Assembly (NCBI RefSeq): GCF_004328645.1
Contig: NZ_CP031395.1
Coordinates: 3,683,501-3,747,500 of the forward strand
DNA length: 64,000 nt
Origin: Hylemonella gracilis
GTDB lineage: Bacteria; Pseudomonadota; Gammaproteobacteria; Burkholderiales; Burkholderiaceae_C
Direction: 5' to 3'
The notes beneath the pieces were generated by a model that saw only the letters and a list, made by a program, of their open reading frames with translations, ran no database searches and was not told the origin of the DNA. Made by a program: the position numbers and the translations under genes. Within the stretch, counting starts at the first letter, position 1, and each line of letters begins with the position of its first letter. Positions 31,948-43,625 of this stretch are shown here, in pieces.

Positions 31948-33588
31948 ATGCAGCTCACCGCCGTCCTGCGCCTGGCCGCCTTCCGCCATTGGTTGCTGGC
32001 GGCCTTCATCCTGATCGCCGTGCTGCTGGGCGGCGCGGCCATCAGCGCGGTGTTCACGCTGGGTCGGCTGATGAACGAGCACGGCGAGGGCGCCTCGCGT
32101 GCCCTGCGCCTGAACGCCGCCACCCAGACCCTGGCCGCGCACACCACGGCGATGGAGCGCGCCGCGCGGCAATCATTGATCCTCAACGACGAACCCCTGC
32201 GCCAACGCTACGCGGAAGAATCGCAATTCGCCGAGGACACCCTCGCGCTGCTGCTGGACGAGACCGCGCAATCCCGTTCACCGGACGACGACATGCAGCG
32301 CCTGGCAACGGACCCTGCCTTCGAGGCATTGAATGGCGCCGCTCAACAATGGCGCGCCCAGCTCGCCCGCATCCGCGCGCTGATGGCGCGAGCCGGGACG
32401 ACGGGAGACGCGCCCGCCAGCCGCGTCCTGGCGCTGCGCCATGCCTTGGCGAGTGAGCGCGCGGTGGCGCGCGCCTTCCGCGACATGGACCTGCTGACCC
32501 AGCAACTCGGCCAACGGGTGCAACAGCTGATCACACGCAATAGCGAAGCGCTGCGCGAGCGGCTGACCCGCAGCCAACGCAACCTGGGCGGACTGGTCAG
32601 TGTCGCCGTGGGCCTCACGCTGGCCCTGGCCGTGGGTCTGGGCCTGTGGCTGGCCCGGCCGCTGCGGCAGATTGAACGCGCCATCGTGGGACTCGGGGAA
32701 AACCGGCTCGATCGGCCCATCGCCATCCGCGGCCCGAGCGACGTGCGCCAACTCGGCCTGCAACTGGACTGGTTGCGCCTGCGCCTGATGGAGCTCGACG
32801 CCGACAAGGCGCGTTTTCTGCGCCACATCTCGCACGAGCTCAAGACGCCGCTGGCCTCGCTGCGCGAAGGCGTGGCCCTGCTGGAAGACGGGGTGACCGG
32901 TCCGCTCAACGAGCGCCAGCACGAGGTGGCGCGCATCCTGCACCAGAACGCGCAAACCTTGCAGCAACGCATCGAGGCCCTGCTGCGCTTCAACGCGGCC
33001 GCCTTCGAGGCACGGCAGCTCAGCCGCCGCGCGGTGGATCTGCACGCGCTGCTTGCCGCGCAGATCGAGGCGCAACGCCTGCAATGGCGGGGTCGCAATC
33101 TGGCGATGCGGGTACGGCACGGGGAGGACGAACACCGCGAGGGGCCGTCGCTGCCGGCCGGCGCCCTGCCCCGGCTGCCCGAGCTGCTTCTGGACGAGGA
33201 AAAGATCGGCATCGCGATCGCCAACCTGCTGTCCAATGCGATCCGCTTCTCACCGCCGGGCGGCGTCATCGACCTCGCCTTCGGTACCCGGCTCGGCTGG
33301 GTGACGCTGGACATCCGCGACCAGGGTCCCGGCGTGGCCGGGACGGACCGCGAGCGCATCTTCGAGCCGTTTTACCGCGGCCAACGCCAGCCCGAACAGC
33401 CGTCCGCACACGCTCTGCATGGCAGCGGCATCGGCCTGTCCATCGTGCGGGAATACATCGAAGCCCACGGCGGACGCATTACATTGGTGGACGATTCGGT
33501 TTCCGACAACGCATCCCTCGTCCCGCCCGGCGCGCAGTCACCTGGTGCGCACTTCCGCATCGAGTTGCCGCATGGGAGTCCGCTTTGA
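31948..33588 (+). CDS. glrK: Sensor histidine kinase, GlrK/QseE type
   Basis: 546 aa. First membrane helix about 15-37 (LLAAFILIAVLLGGAAIS), a helical periplasmic domain about 40-210, second helix about 213-237 (VSVAVGLTLALAVGLGLWLA), a HAMP region, HisKA with phospho-His at about 296 in FLRHISHELKTPLASLREG, and HATPase (NLLSNAIRFSPPGG, DQGPGVAGTDRERIFEPFYR, GSGIGLSIVREY). The gene order kinase, QseG-like lipoprotein, NtrC-type regulator identifies the GlrK/QseE family, but here the regulator gene is separated by about 10 kb. It starts 26 bp after eda and may be partly cotranscribed with it. Confidence 0.88.
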   Translation: MQLTAVLRLAAFRHWLLAAFILIAVLLGGAAISAVFTLGRLMNEHGEGASRALRLNAATQTLAAHTTAMERAARQSLILNDEPLRQRYAEESQFAEDTLALLLDETAQSRSPDDDMQRLATDPAFEALNGAAQQWRAQLARIRALMARAGTTGDAPASRVLALRHALASERAVARAFRDMDLLTQQLGQRVQQLITRNSEALRERLTRSQRNLGGLVSVAVGLTLALAVGLGLWLARPLRQIERAIVGLGENRLDRPIAIRGPSDVRQLGLQLDWLRLRLMELDADKARFLRHISHELKTPLASLREGVALLEDGVTGPLNERQHEVARILHQNAQTLQQRIEALLRFNAAAFEARQLSRRAVDLHALLAAQIEAQRLQWRGRNLAMRVRHGEDEHREGPSLPAGALPRLPELLLDEEKIGIAIANLLSNAIRFSPPGGVIDLAFGTRLGWVTLDIRDQGPGVAGTDRERIFEPFYRGQRQPEQPSAHALHGSGIGLSIVREYIEAHGGRITLVDDSVSDNASLVPPGAQSPGAHFRIELPHGSPL

Positions 33589-33637
33589 TGACGGACTGCG
33601 GATGCCGTGCCTGGACCGCATCCGGAAACGACCTGCC

Positions 33638-34399
33638 ATGAGCTTCCCGCCACACCTGCCTGACAACGCGCATGGTGCCCCCCGCGCCCGGCCGGGGGCG
33701 TGGGCGCGGGGGTCGCGCCTCCTGGCGGCGGGGATGGTCTTGGGCCCACTCGCCGGCTGCGCGGCGCAGCTCTGGCCACCCTCGGCGTGGTCGCTGTCGG
33801 TGGACCTGCCCTTCACACCCCCCCGCCCCGCCGAGGCGGCCCCGATCGCCACACCACCCAGCCCGCCCGGGACACCCGCGTCGGCCTGGCTGAAGGACCC
33901 CGGCAACGTCTCCGAGGCGCTGGCTTACGTCGCGGTCCTGTGCAACCTGCCTCCCGCGGAGCTGACCGCCGAGATCGAGCGGCTGAAAATCATCAACGCC
34001 CAGGACGGACACGACGCGCTGCGGGCGCGGCAGCTCGCCTTCGCGGAACAGCTTGCGCAGCTGTACGCGGAGCGGCAGCGCCTGCAGGAATCCAATGACA
34101 AACAGGCCCTGCAACTGCGCGAGCGCCAGCGCCGCATCGAGCAGTTGAACGGTCAGATCGAAGCGATGCGCGCCGTCGAGTACAGCCTTCCCGCGGCGGC
34201 GGCGGGCGGGTCCGCCCCCCTCGCATCGACGACAAAACCGGGCGGTGCCGCAGCGCGCAGGGGCACCACGGGTTTCACCATTCCCTCCGCACCGACGGGG
34301 TCCAAACCCCTTCCGGCCAGCGCGGCCGAGCCTGCCGCAGGCCGCGACGAACCCGACGCCAAAATCGACGAAGAGACGCACCCGGCGTCCGAACCCTGA
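33638..34399 (+). CDS. QseG-like lipoprotein, copy A
   Basis: 253 aa from the ATG of MSFPPHLPDNAHG (start uncertain; an ATG at 33572 overlapping glrK is also in frame). Lipobox MVLGPLAGC at about 35-43, then the conserved opening AAQLWPPSAWSLSVDLPF, a Pro-rich stretch, and a helical/coiled-coil part (AEIERLKIINAQDGHDAL to RIEQLNGQIEAMRAVE). The C-terminal 75 residues are low-complexity. In enteric bacteria QseG is an outer-membrane lipoprotein that acts on the kinase QseE/GlrK. A diverged second copy lies at 43023-43625, on the other side of the inserted operon. Confidence 0.8.
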   Translation: MSFPPHLPDNAHGAPRARPGAWARGSRLLAAGMVLGPLAGCAAQLWPPSAWSLSVDLPFTPPRPAEAAPIATPPSPPGTPASAWLKDPGNVSEALAYVAVLCNLPPAELTAEIERLKIINAQDGHDALRARQLAFAEQLAQLYAERQRLQESNDKQALQLRERQRRIEQLNGQIEAMRAVEYSLPAAAAGGSAPLASTTKPGGAAARRGTTGFTIPSAPTGSKPLPASAAEPAAGRDEPDAKIDEETHPASEP

Positions 34400-34664: not shown

Positions 34665-36128
34665 CTAGACCGGGCGGGCGTTGTCAACCAGACTCAAGAA
34701 GTCGTAGTCCGTCTGGATGAAGTATTGCAGGTCGAAGTCTTCGTGCGTGACCACGATGAGGATCGCGGCCTTCTCTTTCAGGTACTCGGCGATGGCCTTC
34801 ATGACCAGGGCGCGGGTCTCGAAGTCGATGTGGGCGAAGGGCTCGTCCAACAGGATCACGTCAGGCTCGGCGGCCAGGGCGCGGACAATGTCCATGCGCT
34901 TCATCTCGCCGGAACTGAGCGACCGGGGCAGGTTGTCCAAGAGCACCCGGCGTAGCTGGATCTTGTCCATCAGCGCCTGCACCCGGTCCTCGGCGTAGAA
35001 GGCCGGATTGCCGTAGACCTTGCCGATCTCCTTGAGAGAGTCCCTCACCTTCAGGTCGGGGAAGAACGAGAAGCGGGAATCCTGCTGAACGATGGCGATC
35101 TTGCGCCGATACGGTTTGAAGGCTTCGGGGTCCCCGCCGCGCTCGTGGGGCTTCAAGGCCACCAGATCCTGGCCACCGAGGTCGATGGTTCCGCTGGTGC
35201 CGTCCAACAGCCGCAGGATGGCCTTGATCATGGTCGTCTTGCCGCAGCCCGAGGGGCCGGTGACGCCGTAGATGTGGGATCGGCGGAAGGTCACGTCGAG
35301 ATGCTTGTAGGCCCAGCTCGGACGGTCGCCGAAAACACCCCGAACCATGTAGTGCTGACTGACGTCTCTCAGGTCCAGGCCTACGGCACCGGTGCCGTCG
35401 TCCTTCTCCTTGTCGATCACGACGTCGTCGGGGAGTTTGTCGAGCGTGATGAGCTTCTGGTTCTCGAGGCGCAGGATGACGTCGAGGTGCAGGGCGCGAA
35501 CGAAGTCGAGGTCGTGGCTGGCCATGAGAATGGTCTTGCCCTTGCCCAGAATCTCGTCGTTGAGGAAGGTGATGAAGCGCTTGCGCAGTTGCCGATCGAG
35601 GTTGACGGTGGGCTCATCCAGCAGCACCAGGTCGGCCTTGCGTGAGAGCAGGATCATCAGGGTGATCCGCTGAAGCTCACCGCCGGAGACTTCGTCGGGA
35701 TACTGTTTCGCGTACCGGGTGAAGTCGAGGTTGAAGAACTCCTTGAGCCGCCGTGCGACCAGTTCCTGGGCCTCGGGGCAGATGATCTTGAGGTTCTGCT
35801 CCAGCGACAGAGCCGGATTCATGGCCTGGGCCGTCTCGGCGGGAACGAAGGTCAGACCGACGTGGAGGATGCTCCGCCAGGTTTCGAGGCTGGTCTTCTT
35901 GCCACCGACGTAGGCGTCGATGCCATGGAGTTTCATTCCACCAGCCATGGTGAAAGGCCCGTAGAGGAGGCCAGCCAGGGTCTTGAGGAAGACCGACTTG
36001 CCGGAGCCAGTGGTACCAGTGATCACCGTCGAGGTACCGGGCACGGGTTCAAACCGCGCGATGTCGAACAGGAGCCGGTCCTTGAGGTGGACCGTGAAAT
36101 TGTTGACGAGGACGGGGGCGGCGCTCAT
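34665..36128 (-). CDS. Single-chain double ABC ATPase (DppD-DppF-like)
   Basis: 487 aa from the ATG of MSAAPVLVNNFTVHL. Two complete ABC domains: first with Walker A TGTTGSGKSVFLK, signature VSGGELQR and Walker B DLVLLDEPTVNLD; second (from about 240) with Walker A TGPSGCGKTTMIK, signature LSSGEMKR and Walker B DVILLDEPFAHID. Peptide/nickel transporters usually have two separate ATPases of about 320 residues each, so this is a compact fusion lacking the family's C-terminal extensions. It is last in the six-gene operon; its ATG overlaps the permease stop (ATGA). Confidence 0.9.
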   Translation of the reverse strand: MSAAPVLVNNFTVHLKDRLLFDIARFEPVPGTSTVITGTTGSGKSVFLKTLAGLLYGPFTMAGGMKLHGIDAYVGGKKTSLETWRSILHVGLTFVPAETAQAMNPALSLEQNLKIICPEAQELVARRLKEFFNLDFTRYAKQYPDEVSGGELQRITLMILLSRKADLVLLDEPTVNLDRQLRKRFITFLNDEILGKGKTILMASHDLDFVRALHLDVILRLENQKLITLDKLPDDVVIDKEKDDGTGAVGLDLRDVSQHYMVRGVFGDRPSWAYKHLDVTFRRSHIYGVTGPSGCGKTTMIKAILRLLDGTSGTIDLGGQDLVALKPHERGGDPEAFKPYRRKIAIVQQDSRFSFFPDLKVRDSLKEIGKVYGNPAFYAEDRVQALMDKIQLRRVLLDNLPRSLSSGEMKRMDIVRALAAEPDVILLDEPFAHIDFETRALVMKAIAEYLKEKAAILIVVTHEDFDLQYFIQTDYDFLSLVDNARPV

Positions 36129-36931
36129 GCGTGCTGCTCCTTTTGCTTGTCTTGTCCCAAAAGGAGCAGGAACGCGAAACTCACCATGACCAAGAGGATG
36201 ACCGGAAGCCAGAACATCAGCCGAGAACCGTCGATGTCGCGCAGCAGGACCATGCGCCAGGCGGCAATCAGGCCGCCGGGACTGGTGTGGGCCGGGGTAC
36301 CGTTGGCACCCATGCCCACCTGGATGATGAAGCTGAACGAGCAATCCAACACCAGGGTCTTGAGCAGAATCACGGCAGCGGTGCGGCGCAGTACGTCGCG
36401 CATGTCCTTCGAGTTCAGCAGGACAGCCAGAATTCGCCCCCTGGTGAAGCCGTAGGACCGCAGCGACACGGAGTACTTGCGGTGGTAGAGCTCACCCAGC
36501 GGCAAGGCCACGCCGCGGACCGCTTCGGGAAGGGTCGTCAGGGTGGCGGCGAAGATGAAGACGCTCAAGGACAAAATGGTCGAGGTCGACGCCGAGTTGC
36601 TGGCCAGGGCCACGGCCACGGGGGCGTAGCAGAACAGTGCCACCAGAATGGCGGGGATCGATTCGACCGCGTCGAGCACCGCAGCGGTGGTCTTGCCCAC
36701 CACGGGCCACAGGATCGAGCAGTAGCCCAGGACCACGGTCACGGCACCGGCCACCAAAACAGTGAAGGCCAGGGTGATGGACAGCTGACGAAAACTCGTC
36801 ACCAGGCTGTGCCAGTAGGCCGTCGGCAGACCGACGGTCCACTCCCCTGCACCGGGAACCCAGGCGAAGAGGAAGGGCGAAAGCATCACCACCACGGCGG
36901 CGATGCCCAGAATCTCAAAGAGCTTTTTCAT
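36125..36931 (-). CDS. DppC-like ABC transporter permease
   Basis: 268 aa, first helix at about 7-25 (LGIAAVVVMLSPFLFAW), about six membrane segments in total. The inner-membrane-component EAA-like loop is recognisable near RSYGFTRGRILAVLLNSKDMRDVLRR, which should contact the ATPase. It overlaps the preceding permease gene by 17 bp and the ATPase gene by 4 bp. Substrate unknown. Confidence 0.85.
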   Translation of the reverse strand: MKKLFEILGIAAVVVMLSPFLFAWVPGAGEWTVGLPTAYWHSLVTSFRQLSITLAFTVLVAGAVTVVLGYCSILWPVVGKTTAAVLDAVESIPAILVALFCYAPVAVALASNSASTSTILSLSVFIFAATLTTLPEAVRGVALPLGELYHRKYSVSLRSYGFTRGRILAVLLNSKDMRDVLRRTAAVILLKTLVLDCSFSFIIQVGMGANGTPAHTSPGGLIAAWRMVLLRDIDGSRLMFWLPVILLVMVSFAFLLLLGQDKQKEQHA

Positions 36932-37799
36932 ACCACCGCGGATACAGGACGAAGAGGGCCGACTTGACCAAGAAAGTCACCAGGGCATTGACGGCCAGGA
37001 GGACGAACACCGCGGCGATCAGGGTATCGGTGTTCATATTGACCAGGGCGTCCAGCAGGGTGCTGCCCAGCCCCGGAAAATTGAAGACCATCTCGGCGAT
37101 GGTGACACCGCCGATGATGGCCGGGACTTTGCCCGCCACATAGGGGATGAACCGGGGAGCCGCAGAGTTCAAGAGATATCCGGTCACCGTCCCCGGCAGC
37201 GGCAGGACTCGACCGACCGCCGGCCCCAGGGTGCTGAACACCAGGGTGTGGGTCGTGTCGATCTGGCGCTTCATGTCCAGGGTCAAGAACCGGGCGGCGT
37301 CCCAGCCCAGACCTCCGAGAACCACCACCACCAGGGCGATGAGCATGGGGGAGGGATTCATGCCGGAAGAACCGTAGAGCAGCCAGAACCCGACGAAGAG
37401 CGGAACCGCCGACAAGAGCGAGGCCAGCAGGCCACCCAAGGCGCCCAGCCCGAGGGCCCTACGCCCCCCCTGCACGGTACGCAGGTAGGTCGACGAGGCC
37501 GCCGTGGATGCGCCCACCAGGGCGATGACCACCAGGAACAGCAGCGAGACCAAGGCCAAGGGGAAGGTGATGGCCGCGCCCGAACTGATGATCTCCCCGG
37601 CGCTGAACCCCGCCGTTTGGAGCGAGAAATCAGGGTTCAGGGTGACCATGGACCAGAAGGCCCCGAGGGTCTTGAGGTACAGGTCCGCCGAGGCACCGAC
37701 GGAGGCGAGGTAGAGACCCACCAAGGCCAGGGTTCCGACCAGGGTGAAGACCACCCCGCGGAGCCCCAGCTCGAGGGCCAGAAAGCGCAGGAACCTCAT
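36915..37799 (-). CDS. DppB-like ABC transporter permease
   Basis: 294 aa from the ATG of MRFLRFLALELGLRG, which overlaps the stop of the binding-protein gene (ATGA). About six to seven membrane helices. The segment IPYVAGKVPAIIGGVTIAEM followed by FNFPGLGSTLLDALVNMNTD is the characteristic C-terminal region of DppB/OppB permeases. A periplasmic domain of about 50 residues follows helix 1, as in DppB. Confidence 0.87.
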   Translation of the reverse strand: MRFLRFLALELGLRGVVFTLVGTLALVGLYLASVGASADLYLKTLGAFWSMVTLNPDFSLQTAGFSAGEIISSGAAITFPLALVSLLFLVVIALVGASTAASSTYLRTVQGGRRALGLGALGGLLASLLSAVPLFVGFWLLYGSSGMNPSPMLIALVVVVLGGLGWDAARFLTLDMKRQIDTTHTLVFSTLGPAVGRVLPLPGTVTGYLLNSAAPRFIPYVAGKVPAIIGGVTIAEMVFNFPGLGSTLLDALVNMNTDTLIAAVFVLLAVNALVTFLVKSALFVLYPRWYEKAL

Positions 37800-39391
37800 T
37801 GGGCCCATTCCTCAACCGAGAGGAAGGGGTTGTCCGAAGCGATGACAACGTTCTTGATGGCCCGGGAATAAACGTCCTTCTTGAGGCTGACCAAGGGCAC
37901 CGAGGGTTGCAGGGCGCCGATCTTGGCCTGCAGCTCACGCGTGACCTTGATCCAGTCGGTGGCCACCACGGTGTTGTCCCAGGTCTGGAACAGGGCGTCG
38001 AGGCCCGTGTCGGCGACGCCGGTCACGTTCAGGGCCCCGTTGCCCCGGTACCACTTGCCCATGTCGGAGTAGACGTTGTCGAAGCCCTCGGCATAGACCA
38101 AGGCCAAGTCGTACTTCTTCTCGTTGAAGACAAGGCGGTTGAACACCTGATCACCGGTGCGCTTGGCCTCGACGGTCAGACCGATCTTGGCGTACTGGGC
38201 CACCAGACCGTCGGCCATCTTCTGCCCCAGGTCGCCCAGAGAGTCGGGAAACAGCAGGACGGCGCTCTGGCCCTTGAGGCCGGCCTTCTCGGCCAGGGAA
38301 GCTGCCGTGGCCGGGTTGTGGGGATGGGTGGCCTCGAAGGGAGGCACGTTGTACTCGGCGAAGTTGCGGCTGAACAGGTCCGAGGGGAAGGCGCCATCGT
38401 TGACGATGGTCAGATCGTCGCGGTCAGTGACTCCGGGAACCAGGGCCTTGCGGTCCACCGCGGCCGACAGGGCGTAGCGCGCCGTGGCCGAAGCGAAAGT
38501 GGGCTTCTTGCTGTTGATCGCGACCTGATAGAAGGCGTAGGGCATGAAGGAGCTGAACTGGACGCCGCCCATCTTCTCGACCATGGGCCGGTCGGCTGGC
38601 GAGGTCTCGAGAATCAGGTTGATGCGGGCCTCGCGGAACTCGTTGAGCCGGATCACCGGATCGAGAACTCTGCGCAGGACCAGAGTCGACGTGGCCGGAG
38701 GGTGACGCAGATAGCTCGCATTGGCCTTGAAGGTCAGCCACTTGCCAATTTCCCAGCTCTCGAAGACGAAGGGACCGGTCCCCACGGGGGCAGTCGCGAA
38801 ACCCCGCTCCTTGTCACCGGAGCGGAGATTCGTCGACAGCTTGGTGCCCTTGTAGTTCTCGGGAATGATCTTGAAAGTCAACACCGGGATGGCCCGGAAC
38901 TCTGGGATGGGCTTGCGGAACTCGATGACGACGGTCTTGGCGTCCTGCGCCTTGACCGACGAAATGAACGAGTTGAGGTAGTCCCGCTTGGGCGACTTGT
39001 TCTCGGGCGCCATGTAAGCGGCGAAGGAGTACGCGACGTCGCCGGCGGTGACGGCGGTGCCGTCGTGCCACTTCACGTCTTTGAGGACCGCCGTGTACGT
39101 AGTCTTGGTGGCCGGGTCCTGGCTGATGGAGTCGGCCAGCGCCAGCTCGGCATTGAGCTTGCCCGAGGCGGTATCGACCTCGAAGTTGGCCAAGCCGTCG
39201 AACACCAGCTCATTGGCGTTCATGCCCTGGAGATTCTGCTCCAGCACGGGGTTCAGGGAGTCTGGCAGGTTCGAGATACCGACCACGAGGCCCTCGGGCT
39301 CCCGCTGCCAGAACATGAACACGGCGGCGGTGGCCGCCAAAACCAGGGCCGCGATAGCCCCGACGATGATCGCATTCTTTTTTTGAGCCAT
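37796..39391 (-). CDS. Family-5 extracellular solute-binding protein, membrane-anchored
   Basis: 531 aa. The N-terminus has an uncleaved-looking helix (IIVGAIAALVLAATAAVFMFW) without a lipobox Cys, so it may be tethered to the inner membrane by that helix. The SBP_bac_5 fold is clear: SLNPVLEQNLQGMNANELVFDGL-type opening, VLKDVKWHDGTAVTAGDVAYSF, and ATARYALSAAVDRKALVPG. Family members bind oligopeptides, nickel or other small ligands. The start lies 1 bp from the stop of the upstream lipoprotein gene. Pocket-determining residues cannot be read with confidence. Confidence 0.9.
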   Translation of the reverse strand: MAQKKNAIIVGAIAALVLAATAAVFMFWQREPEGLVVGISNLPDSLNPVLEQNLQGMNANELVFDGLANFEVDTASGKLNAELALADSISQDPATKTTYTAVLKDVKWHDGTAVTAGDVAYSFAAYMAPENKSPKRDYLNSFISSVKAQDAKTVVIEFRKPIPEFRAIPVLTFKIIPENYKGTKLSTNLRSGDKERGFATAPVGTGPFVFESWEIGKWLTFKANASYLRHPPATSTLVLRRVLDPVIRLNEFREARINLILETSPADRPMVEKMGGVQFSSFMPYAFYQVAINSKKPTFASATARYALSAAVDRKALVPGVTDRDDLTIVNDGAFPSDLFSRNFAEYNVPPFEATHPHNPATAASLAEKAGLKGQSAVLLFPDSLGDLGQKMADGLVAQYAKIGLTVEAKRTGDQVFNRLVFNEKKYDLALVYAEGFDNVYSDMGKWYRGNGALNVTGVADTGLDALFQTWDNTVVATDWIKVTRELQAKIGALQPSVPLVSLKKDVYSRAIKNVVIASDNPFLSVEEWAQ

Positions 39392-39392
39392 A

Positions 39393-40877
39393 TCAGCGCA
39401 TCCTCACCACAAAGGAACTGTAGACGACTGCGTCGCCGGAATATTTGCCGTCGTCATTGGTCTTGCCCAACTCGAAGAAGTATTTCCCCGAGGTCATCTG
39501 GGCTCCGGCGTTGATGACCGGCCAGGAGTTGCCCACCTTGTACTGGCGGTTCACCAGATCCTTGAGCTTCTTGGAATCAATCTCCTTGCCCGACTTGGTG
39601 TTCTCGTTGAACACACGGACAGGGCGGCTGTCGTCAACGGTGATGACCAGGTCGTTCAAGACGCCCTTGGGAATCTCCACCATGCCCCACCAGTAGTCAG
39701 GCGAACTCTTCACCGCGCCCCTGAACTTGGCGGGTCGGCTTTTCTGATCCGGGCCCTTGGCACCGGGAACGGGGTTGAACATGCCGATCAGCATGGGCTG
39801 CACGGCCTTGCCGCGGCTGGCGATCTCGGCGGCGACGGCCGCGTCCTTCTTGGCCTTCTCGATTTCGGCGGTGACCACGGCAATGCGGGCCAGCAGTTCC
39901 TGCTTCTGGGTTTCGACGTCCTTGAGCATGTCCTTGTCGATGACCCTAGGGTACTTGGCGGCAAAGGCCACGACCTCGGCCTGCAGGCTGTCGATGTTGG
40001 TCTTGGTCTGCTGGTTGAACGCCAGCATGTCGTCGAGGGTCATGTTGCCGACCTTGTCCGCGTCGGGCTGGCGGGCGAATTCCTCGCCGATCCGGTCCTT
40101 GAACGAGTAGGCGTGGTTCCGCAAGGTCCTCTCCATCTCGTTGCGGGTGTCGGCCCGCTTGCGGCGTGTCCTGTCCGAGGCCAAGGCAATGATGGACCCG
40201 GCGGGGTAGTTGCCGGCCTTCTGGATGTCGGCCATGGCGGTCTCGACCTTGCCGTACTCGGCGATGGCGGCTTCGTAGCTGTCGATCTTGTCGTCTAGGC
40301 TCTCTTTACCCCGGGCGGCGACCACGAGATCATCGGGCCCCTTTTCCCTGGCCCGGAAGTCGGCGATGGCCGCCAACTCCTTGTTCTCGGGGCCGTAATC
40401 GACGGCGTCGCCCAAAAAGTCACTGGAACTCTTCATGAAGTCCCTGGCGTTCGCAATTCTGTTGGCGTTGAGTCGCAAGCGGACCACGGCTTTGGCCGCG
40501 GGGGCGAGCTGGGTCTTGACGTCGGCGGGCACCTTGAGTTCAGAGGGAAAGTCGCTGGCGGCCTTGACGGCGTTATTCCAGCCAGCCACCAAGGGAGGCT
40601 CGGCGGTCACTGGCAGGGCTGCAGTGGCGTCGACGGTCTTATCGAGGGCAGCCTTCTGGTCAAGATAGCCCATCCATTGACTCTTGACATTGGCCGCTTG
40701 GATATTGGACCAGTAGCCCCGTGCGGCTTCGAACTTGCCGGCGTTCCACTCCTTCACGCCGCCGGCGATCAGTTCGTCGTCCTTCATCATCGAGAACTTG
40801 ATGCTCGCGCACGAAGCCAGGAACAGGGCCAAAAAGGCCAGGATGACAACTTTCAGCTTCATTGTTTGCAGTTTCAT
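39393..40877 (-). CDS. Lipoprotein of unknown function with coiled coil
   Basis: 494 aa. A lipoprotein signal (VILAFLALFLASC) anchors it; the Cys is at about residue 23. Residues about 45-60 (WNAGKFEAARGYWSNIQAAN) resemble a TPR-like helix pair. A coiled coil occupies about 280-340 (QKQELLARIAVVTAEIEKAK). The last 120 residues look beta-rich (VLNDLVITVDDSRPVRVFNE; KYFFELGKTNDDGKYSGD). I recognise no family. Its ATG overlaps the FGE-like gene's stop (ATGA) and it abuts the binding-protein gene, so it is clearly part of the system. Confidence 0.8.
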   Translation of the reverse strand: MKLQTMKLKVVILAFLALFLASCASIKFSMMKDDELIAGGVKEWNAGKFEAARGYWSNIQAANVKSQWMGYLDQKAALDKTVDATAALPVTAEPPLVAGWNNAVKAASDFPSELKVPADVKTQLAPAAKAVVRLRLNANRIANARDFMKSSSDFLGDAVDYGPENKELAAIADFRAREKGPDDLVVAARGKESLDDKIDSYEAAIAEYGKVETAMADIQKAGNYPAGSIIALASDRTRRKRADTRNEMERTLRNHAYSFKDRIGEEFARQPDADKVGNMTLDDMLAFNQQTKTNIDSLQAEVVAFAAKYPRVIDKDMLKDVETQKQELLARIAVVTAEIEKAKKDAAVAAEIASRGKAVQPMLIGMFNPVPGAKGPDQKSRPAKFRGAVKSSPDYWWGMVEIPKGVLNDLVITVDDSRPVRVFNENTKSGKEIDSKKLKDLVNRQYKVGNSWPVINAGAQMTSGKYFFELGKTNDDGKYSGDAVVYSSFVVRMR

Positions 40878-42469
40878 TGGGCCTCCCGGACCACGCGGAA
40901 TCCGATGTCGCTGGCGCCCTGACTCGGGTCGACAGCACGGCGGTTGGAAATGCGGAGCTCATTGGGGCCGTCCATCCAGGAACCGCCCTTGACGATTTTG
41001 TAGGAAGGATCGGCACTCATGTTGGCGTCAGGGGACGTCGAGGTCCACTGCCACACGTTACCGACCATGTCGTTCAGACCCAGCGGATTCTTTCCGCTGG
41101 GAAAGGAACCTGCTGGCGAGGGGTGGGTGAACTTCTTGTTGTTCGAGTAGTTGGCCCGGACGCCATCGGTGGGAGCCTGATCACCCCAGGGGAAGGTCGA
41201 ACTCTGCCCGGCCCGGGCGGCGATTTCGTACTCATCCTCGGTGGGGAGGCGGAACTTCTGGCCGGTGGCGGCGGACAGCCAGGCGGTGTAGCGGACAGCC
41301 TGCTCGTAGCTGACTCCGACGACGGGCTGGTCAGCGCCGCTGAAACCATCCGAGTCGAGGTACTCGGGCCACTCGCTTTGGGGCACGTTGGTGGCATCGA
41401 GGTAGGAACGGAACTGGCCGTTGGTCACGGGGCCCTTGGCGATGGCGAAGGCGGCGACGGTGACGGTCCGGGGCTTCTCGTTGCCACCGGCGCGGCGATC
41501 CTGATCGACCTTGCCGACCGTGTAGGTGCCGGCGGCCAGGTTGGCCAGACTGTCGGCGACCTGGGCCAGTTCCTCGGCATTGCGGTAAGGCGCCTCGGTT
41601 TTCAAGCTGGCGTCGAGGGACGCCAGAAACGTGACTTCGGGTGCCTTGCGGGCGAAGGCGCCGGTGATGGTCAGCACGGCCCGCGTGTTCTTGAAGGCGT
41701 CGCCGCTGGGATAGGCAAAGGCCGCCGCTCCCTTGGCATCGGTGACGATGCTCTGGGCGGGAGCCGTGGCTTCGGCCGCGGACCAGACCACGCTCAAGGG
41801 CAATCCGGCCAAGGGGGAGCCGTCCTTGGCGGTGACGGTGGCGACGAAGGCAGTTCCACCCTGAACCAGGCCATCCTTGGGGTTCAGACTGACCGTGGCG
41901 CCCGCCAGTTGCGCGGCAGCCCAGGTCTCGATGGTCTGTGAGAGGAGCGGGGACGAGGCGTCGCCGGTGCGCAGCGTCAGGGCAACGCCAGCCCGGTAGA
42001 GGGCGGCATCGATCTGGACAGCCTGGGAGAGACGGTCTCCGAGCGCGCCCTTGCCCTTCACCACTGCGTCGAACTTGGGTCCCAGGTCGGCGGCGAGCTT
42101 GGACGTCCGCGCTGCTTCGGCCTTGGCCCAATCGCCGTGCGACACCCGGTACGAGGCCTGGAAGAGGTTGTCCTTCTTGTCCGCGGTGTAAGGACGGGTG
42201 GCCACCACAGCCACCGCAGCCTTCATCTCGGCGGTCAGAACCACCTTGTTCTTCTTCTCTTTTTGGATGGCGCCGCTTTCGGTGAGCAGGTTGTAAACCA
42301 GATCATCGAAGGCTGTGGCCTGGGCCTGGGCCTCGGACGCGCCTGACCCGAAGCCATAGTAGTAGCCGGCCTCCATATGGGTGGCAACAAAATCCGTACT
42401 GGCAGCGTACGACACCGTCGAAAGCGCCAATATCCAACTGGTCGCCAGCGTATATATAAGCTTCTTCAT
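40874..42469 (-). CDS. Secreted FGE-sulfatase-domain-like protein without cysteines
   Basis: 531 aa from the ATG of MKKLIYTLATSWILA, with GGAAAGGACGA upstream. Signal peptide 1-22. Residues about 28-120 resemble an LPP20/FlgO-like repeat (YYYGFGSGASEAQAQATAFD). Residues about 195-285 are an Ig-like beta domain (GLVQGGTAFVATVTAKDGSP). The C-terminal 225 residues are an FGE-sulfatase domain (NGQFRSYLDATNVPQSEWP, FRLPTEDEYEIAARAG, GLNDMVGNVWQWTST, YKIVKGGSW, DIGFRVVRE). The protein has no Cys at all, so it lacks the formylglycine-generating active-site pair and is probably a binding module. It is the first gene of the operon. Confidence 0.87.
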   Translation of the reverse strand: MKKLIYTLATSWILALSTVSYAASTDFVATHMEAGYYYGFGSGASEAQAQATAFDDLVYNLLTESGAIQKEKKNKVVLTAEMKAAVAVVATRPYTADKKDNLFQASYRVSHGDWAKAEAARTSKLAADLGPKFDAVVKGKGALGDRLSQAVQIDAALYRAGVALTLRTGDASSPLLSQTIETWAAAQLAGATVSLNPKDGLVQGGTAFVATVTAKDGSPLAGLPLSVVWSAAEATAPAQSIVTDAKGAAAFAYPSGDAFKNTRAVLTITGAFARKAPEVTFLASLDASLKTEAPYRNAEELAQVADSLANLAAGTYTVGKVDQDRRAGGNEKPRTVTVAAFAIAKGPVTNGQFRSYLDATNVPQSEWPEYLDSDGFSGADQPVVGVSYEQAVRYTAWLSAATGQKFRLPTEDEYEIAARAGQSSTFPWGDQAPTDGVRANYSNNKKFTHPSPAGSFPSGKNPLGLNDMVGNVWQWTSTSPDANMSADPSYKIVKGGSWMDGPNELRISNRRAVDPSQGASDIGFRVVREAQ

Positions 42470-42965
42470 TCGTCCTTTCCGGGTCTCCGTCGGCCGGATC
42501 CCCCCAATTGGCCCTATCGTAGGGCAGGCCATCATGCTTTCCGGGCAGACAACCGCGTTTTTGCGGTTTGTTTCAAACTTTTGCAGATCCAGGGGGTTTC
42601 ATACGCCTGTCCGGTGGGCATCGTACCGTACCGGGGCGTGTGACATCGAACCGCAGGCGACAAGCTCAATTCCTGGCGACCATCACGGAGCGTGACGCCA
42701 TCGAGCGCCTCCTCAAGCAACTGAGGAGGCCTCACTTCCGATGGCGCTACGATGCGGCCACAATAGAGATTGAATTCCCCATACTCACGCTCCTGTTCGA
42801 CGCGCAGGCGGATGATTGCACCGAGAGGCGGTATCAGAGCTTGTTTTCATGTCTGCCAATGCCGCACGATCCGCTGCGATACCACGAGGAGCTTCATGAA
42901 CGCGAAACGCCTGCTGCCGGTCTGGGTGCCCAGACGTTTGTAATGCACGTGCGCCATCGTTTTCC
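42470..42965. other. Right-hand junction of the inserted operon; no clear gene
   Basis: About 500 bp between the FGE-like gene (-) and QseG-like copy B (+). It must contain the promoter of the six-gene operon on the minus strand and presumably one for copy B-glrR on the plus strand. The part beyond 42600 is visibly less GC-rich than the neighbours. An open frame on the plus strand (42568-42969) has no recognisable domain and overlaps a possible early start of copy B; I do not call it a gene. Confidence 0.4.
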
Positions 42966-43022
42966 ATGACCGTCGCTTTCCGTCTGCTTTGCCTGCTAAG
43001 CCTGCCGCGTGCGCGCCTGCGC

Positions 43023-43621
43023 ATGCGTCCGCTCATGCGCCTGCTGACGACCGGCCTGGCCGCGATCCTGCTGAGTCAACTGGCCGGGTGCGCCGCGCAG
43101 CTCTGGCCGCCATCGAGCTGGTCGCTGTCGGTGGATCTGCCTTTCCTGAACCGGCAGCCCGCAGCGGACACGGCCGCCACCCCAACCGCCACGCCCGTGT
43201 CGCCCCGCCTGAAAGATCTCGGCGACGCCGCCGAGGCGCTGGACTACGCCGAGGCGCTGTGCGCCCTGCCGCCCGAGGCACTGGACGCCGAAATCGAGCG
43301 CCTCAAGACCATTGAGGCCCAGGAAGGCCACTCCGCGCTGCGCGCGCAGCAACTCGCCTTCGCGCAGCAACTCGCGCGGCAGCTCGCATCGCTGTACGCC
43401 GAGCAGCAACGCCTGCAGGAATCCAACGAGCAACAGGCGCAACTCCTGCGTGAGCGCCAAAAACGCATCGAGCAGTTGAACGGCCAGATCGCCGCGATGC
43501 GCGCCGTTGAAGACAGCCTGCCCCTGACTTCACCCGTGCCCCCGTCCAGGATCACGACCGGACCCGTGCCCGCCGTCCCGACCGCCCCCCACGCCGACCC
43601 GGACAAAGCGGGTTCATCGCC

Positions 43622-43625
<4 letters not shown>
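43023..43625 (+). CDS. QseG-like lipoprotein, copy B
   Basis: About 200 aa from the ATG of MRPLMRLLTTGLAA; an upstream in-frame ATG at 42966 would add 19 residues, and neither has a good ribosome site. Lipobox LLSQLAGC followed by AAQLWPPSSWSLSVDLPF, nearly identical to copy A, then a diverged Pro/Ala linker and the same helical part (AEIERLKTIEAQEGHSAL to RIEQLNGQIAAMRAVE). Its stop overlaps the glrR start (ATGA), the arrangement expected of the native qseG-glrR pair. Copy A, next to glrK, therefore appears to be the duplicate or the other half of an old rearrangement. Confidence 0.82.

Follow-up and report, generated by a model that had tools for sequence, protein, structure and literature searches.

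A conserved six-gene cassette joins a putative family-5 ABC importer to two envelope proteins in Hylemonella and spirochaetes

The 64-kb window analysed here (the whole stretch of DNA examined, taken from contig NZ_CP031395.1 of Hylemonella gracilis, a genome consisting of one contig of 3.82 Mb) contains a cassette of six open reading frames (ORFs), all of which are present on the minus strand between positions 42469 and 34665. In gene order, they encode a secreted protein with the fold of the formylglycine-generating enzyme (FGE-like), a lipoprotein (Lpp), a family-5 substrate-binding protein (SBP), a DppB-like permease (PermB), a very divergent membrane protein presumed to be the second permease (PermC) and a fused ATP-binding cassette (ABC) ATPase. 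The cassette is real, conserved and co-inherited, and, judged from the sequences, we slightly favour the view that it would be a self-contained family-5 (peptide/nickel) ABC importer served by two accessory proteins of its own in the envelope. A binding protein, permeases and ATPases are generally regarded as the full set of parts of a binding-protein-dependent importer; here two envelope proteins are encoded in addition, of which Lpp belongs to no Pfam family, and all six genes occur in every complete locus found, in three phyla.

The distribution of the cassette was surveyed with an Lpp alignment in one genome per species of 84,980 species, by a scan that depends on two conserved peptide patterns, so that diverged members could escape it. 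Thirty-one loci were recovered, 27 from Treponema and other Spirochaetota, two from Aminicenantes and two from H. gracilis (L017 and L034 belong to one assembly, as do L035 and L038). The six genes stood in the same order and on the same strand in 28 of them, the FGE-like gene being first in all 28, and the other three (L009, L035 and L038) stop at contig ends. This agrees with the proposal of an initial annotation, made from the window alone, that the six genes form one unit. Flanking genes were not widely common between loci, and the unit is most simply taken as these six genes. Because loci found through Lpp cannot reveal cassettes lacking it, 295 evenly drawn Spirochaetota genomes were queried with both Lpp and PermC. 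Lpp matched 17 genomes (in G323 weakly, over approximately 106 residues, E 3.8e-4; in G100, a weak match accompanies the main one) and PermC matched 19 (G323, G372 and G296 with weak partial matches, E 1.7e-5 to 5.4e-4). After the weak rows were dropped, the identical 16 genomes held both genes, on the same contig and a few kilobases apart, and no strong PermC match without Lpp was seen among the 295. The initial annotation had asked whether its first two genes occur mostly apart from the transporter; for Lpp, the opposite was found in these Spirochaetota genomes, while the search for the FGE-like protein apart from the transporter covered five close relatives only. Through Lpp, these 16 genomes also indicate a lipoprotein family that has so far gone unannotated in some genomes of Treponema and other Spirochaetota. 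Among 100 relatives, Lpp was found in three: the genome carrying the window and two others of that genus. PermC was found at E ≤ 1e-10 in one of 369 genomes of the window's class, the window's own, and in one of 297 genomes in the phylum of one Aminicenantes locus, namely that genome itself.

The six ORFs and their junctions were found as initially annotated, tightly packed and overlapping. ATGA overlaps occur at 40874, 37796 (using ATG 37799) and 36125, and a single base separates the Lpp stop from the SBP start. The fourth codon of PermB, ATG 37799, fits the MRF start of most homologues; with the longer PermB start, the SBP/PermB overlap is 13 nt. For the FGE-like ORF, which has a further in-frame start at 42535, we infer ATG 42469 because it gives a normal signal-peptide start, and the ATPase, whose longest ORF opens at TTG 36344, probably starts at ATG 36128, since the resulting 4-nt PermC/ATPase overlap recurs in other loci. 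Across the loci, junctions mostly overlap or lie a few bases apart, with gaps of up to 213 bases (SBP–PermB) and 174 bases (FGE–Lpp) in some spirochaetes. The PermB/PermC overlap (36915–36931, minus strand) is exactly 17 nt in the window and in each of the 29 other loci in which both gene ends could be located. The sequence preceding it is tatccgaggtggt in 18 of the 29 loci; gagg is present in 28 of 29, and gcgg in H. gracilis and the window. This Shine–Dalgarno-like stretch for PermC (window 36915–36951, minus strand) lies inside the last PermB codons, giving dual coding over an overlap of constant length, and the same arrangement is seen in the 29 other loci. A double role of this stretch, in coding for the almost invariant end of PermB and in supplying the Shine–Dalgarno-like core for PermC, would explain why the overlap length does not drift, and translation of the two genes may be coupled here. 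The ratio of nonsynonymous to synonymous substitution (dN/dS) between the window and the H. gracilis locus L008 was 0.17, 0.14, 0.10, 0.09, 0.07 and 0.04 for the six genes taken in order; given the constant 17-nt overlap and these low ratios, the packing is more than chance.

The transporter part was initially described as a helix-anchored family-5 binding protein, a DppB/DppC permease pair and a single fused ATPase, a description that stood except for the DppC assignment. The SBP (37796–39391, minus strand) matches SBP_bac_5 (PF00496) with 178.3 bits against a cut-off of 32.4; it lacks cysteine and has an N-terminal hydrophobic helix at residues 8–26 by hydropathy, by which it is presumably tethered, and a hydrophobic N-terminus was recognized by eye in all 29 other loci. 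PermB (36915–37808, minus strand) matches PF00528 (BPD_transp_1; 28.7 bits, cut-off 26.4), as do 19 of 21 homologues the Pfam permease family at E ≤ 0.01, and its C-terminal end gave a profile match to DppB (8z1v, E 6e-4, profile positions 222–292). PermC (36125–36931, minus strand) shows six hydrophobic segments by hydropathy and is not recognizable as DppC by Pfam, in which none of 30 homologues finds a match at E ≤ 0.01; the window protein has no NCBIfam match, and no PDB match was obtained at E ≤ 1. Comparison with two OppC-type proteins by hhalign was collinear over 172 columns but not significant (P 0.058, probability 0.95 percent, from shallow alignments). The ATPase (34665–36128, minus strand) contains two complete nucleotide-binding domains (NBDs), seen as two ABC_tran stretches, and the residues that we take to be the Walker A, signature, Walker B and H-loop motifs are invariant in both halves in 16 aligned rows. 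The regions following each NBD match no family and the only cysteines are Cys117 and Cys295, so that a [4Fe-4S] C-terminal extension like that of E. coli DppD/DppF was rejected.

The FGE-like protein (40874–42469, minus strand; 531 aa) consists of a signal peptide, an N-domain (residues ~36–138), an Ig-like domain (~190–300) and the FGE fold (~300–531). The fold was confirmed by a PF03781 match and by structure, the best solved fold by Z being PvdO of Pseudomonas aeruginosa (Z 22.8, rmsd 3.2, 220 aligned). The initial reading of a secreted FGE-like protein is borne out as to signal peptide and fold; an ordinary formylglycine-generating enzyme is excluded, since neither catalytic cysteine is present when the protein is aligned to human FGE. 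Membership in GldK (93.8 bits, curated cut-off 350) and in PvdO (89.5 bits, curated cut-off 500; NCBIfam names this model dihydropyoverdine dehydrogenase) was likewise rejected. The N-domain matched LPP20 lipoproteins (PF02169) weakly: three of 29 members gave E ≤ 0.1, the lowest value being 0.026. In one Treponema assembly, a further gene with an FGE domain, separate from the first, stands ~560 bases upstream of the six genes (L024:6278–7831). Lpp (39393–40877, minus strand) has a lipobox at Cys23, a helical part (~30–350) and a C-terminal beta-sandwich (~355–490), and deserves the earlier label of an unrecognized lipoprotein: the window protein falls under every Pfam cut-off, and no Pfam family was hit by more than five of 36 members at E ≤ 0.1. 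Its structure was predicted with a pLDDT of 91.8, and the modelled C-terminal domain has a weak fold likeness to collagen-binding domains and PliG. Of the 40 invariant Lpp columns, 29 lie in the C-terminal part from residue 355.

Combining these features, the SBP would be held at the inner membrane by its N-terminal helix, beside its translocator, and Lpp, with its helical part as a stalk and the conserved beta-sandwich as a head, would serve for docking or capture. Together with the FGE-like pseudo-enzyme, it may build an envelope docking or capture platform that brings a scarce ligand to the tethered SBP, the best guess being a peptide or a peptide-bearing envelope fragment; ATP binding and hydrolysis would then drive the ligand through PermB/PermC. 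Capture of a peptide or glycoconjugate by the envelope module, as first suggested, would be plausible. A more far-reaching version is put forward tentatively, as the less probable form: the six proteins would assemble into an ABC apparatus spanning the envelope, with the FGE pseudo-enzyme and the stalk-like Lpp docked on the tethered SBP and physically bridging the outer envelope to the translocator. Such an importer architecture would be a new one. Several points weigh against the importer reading. The direction of import is deduced from the SBP family alone, PermC is without significant relation to any known permease, and the SBPs of L030 and L033 contain LIAC, a possible lipobox. Regarding co-inheritance, the 31 loci were found via Lpp and are blind to cassettes without it, PermC was the sole transporter part in the co-occurrence test, which would miss SBP or ATPase relatives lacking PermC, and the correlation of 0.89–0.98 between the distances of the six genes (16 rows) would arise from shared descent alone.

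Among the alternatives, the one that survives best is that the cassette is not an importer at all. ABC units are used in a non-import way by FtsEX and Bce-type systems, and here ATP-driven movement could be passed via the tethered SBP to the FGE-like protein and Lpp, for example in envelope maintenance or sensing. The retention of two envelope proteins with the transporter, the N-terminal helix of the SBP, the structural service of the FGE fold in PorK, as far as its description goes, and the concentration of invariant Lpp columns (29 of 40) from residue 355 on would all suit such a machine, for which, however, neither a complete family-5 SBP nor a DppB-type permease, both under strong constraint here, is obviously needed; we consider it doubtful. 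An ordinary Dpp/Opp-type peptide importer linked by chance to two unrelated genes is improbable: the SBP, PermB and the ATPase do come from broad importer families, but a strong PermC match never occurred without Lpp in the 295 Spirochaetota genomes and the FGE gene leads every six-gene locus. Least probable of all is a catalytic FGE-fold enzyme that modifies the substrate before import, like PvdO, EgtB or true FGE, as both FGE cysteines are absent, the window protein has no cysteine in its whole sequence and S508 is invariant in the motif region (29 rows); a cysteine-free chemistry is a faint possibility. The preferred reading stays that of an importer. The cassette can be used to test whether an importer may bring its own docking parts in the envelope and whether the FGE fold may act as a scaffold beyond the type IX secretion system.

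The closest named relatives at the locus are two Hylemonella gracilis genomes (Lpp 93 percent identical); beyond Hylemonella-like sequences, the best full-length Lpp relatives, among the best 120 of 230 matches, were metagenomic contigs with 50–58 percent identity. In a four-gene tree (29 rows), Hylemonella joined the spirochaete assembly L013 with full support, a join that may be false, since the tree program flagged the two branches as long. At third codon positions, GC content was similar in the cassette genes (81–88 percent) and in the neighbours tested (82–87), and overall GC was 63.0 in the cassette, 67–72 in the neighbours and 64.6 in the window, which is mixed and weak evidence on a foreign origin. 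Given the distribution of the cassette, horizontal acquisition by a Hylemonella ancestor is the simplest and most likely reading. The cassette lies between genes assigned by their domains to a kinase and a sigma-54 regulator, presumably QseE-like and QseF-like, respectively. It is flanked by two QseG-like lipoprotein genes (33716–34207, plus strand, inside ORF 33419–34399, and 42966–43622, plus strand), which share 68 percent identity across their matched portion. Two such genes occur in each of the three cassette-bearing genomes of the genus (on different contigs in G006), and 23 further genomes of the genus gave no match at E 1e-6. Among the other loci, two spirochaete assemblies have a histidine kinase and an OmpR-type regulator upstream, in divergent orientation to the cassette (L015:5169–7281 and L029:5089–7159); a TD-1 cis-regulatory RNA adjoins an S1-domain gene divergent to the cassette in Treponema parvum (L016:7714–7827, minus strand); and a run of three tRNAs starts less than 100 bases from the cassette end in Treponema bryantii (L026:16245–16563, minus strand).

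The initial annotation knew of no importer with FGE-like and Lpp partners, and our search of the open-access literature found no description of one. The cassette is best filed as a putative variant of the family-5 importer kind. The reference importer, E. coli DppABCDF, whose DppD/DppF NBDs bear a C-terminal [4Fe-4S]-binding extension according to the accessible part of the source (PMC12136057), shares with it, like Opp, an SBP_bac_5 binding protein, a DppB-like permease and two NBDs; the cassette differs in its fused ATPase, NBDs without the [4Fe-4S] tail, an SBP with a membrane helix, an unrecognizable PermC and two extra envelope genes. DppABCD and OppABCD of Mycobacterium tuberculosis, compared by description only, use a single ATPase subunit and a binding protein that stays bound, and are similar in having one ATPase chain and in that the cassette SBP probably stays with its translocator; the part of their description available to us mentions no FGE-like or helical lipoprotein partner (PMC12136057). 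For the FGE-like protein, PvdO is the nearest solved fold, yet its model cut-off was not reached. The closest precedent, by analogy, appears to be PorK of the type IX secretion system, reported in the accessible part of its description as a cysteine-free FGE fold serving as a structural docking hub in the envelope (PMC12421860). Like PorK/GldK, the FGE-like protein would be an envelope FGE fold without catalytic cysteines, but it carries different extra domains and adjoins an ABC transporter instead of a type IX secretion system.
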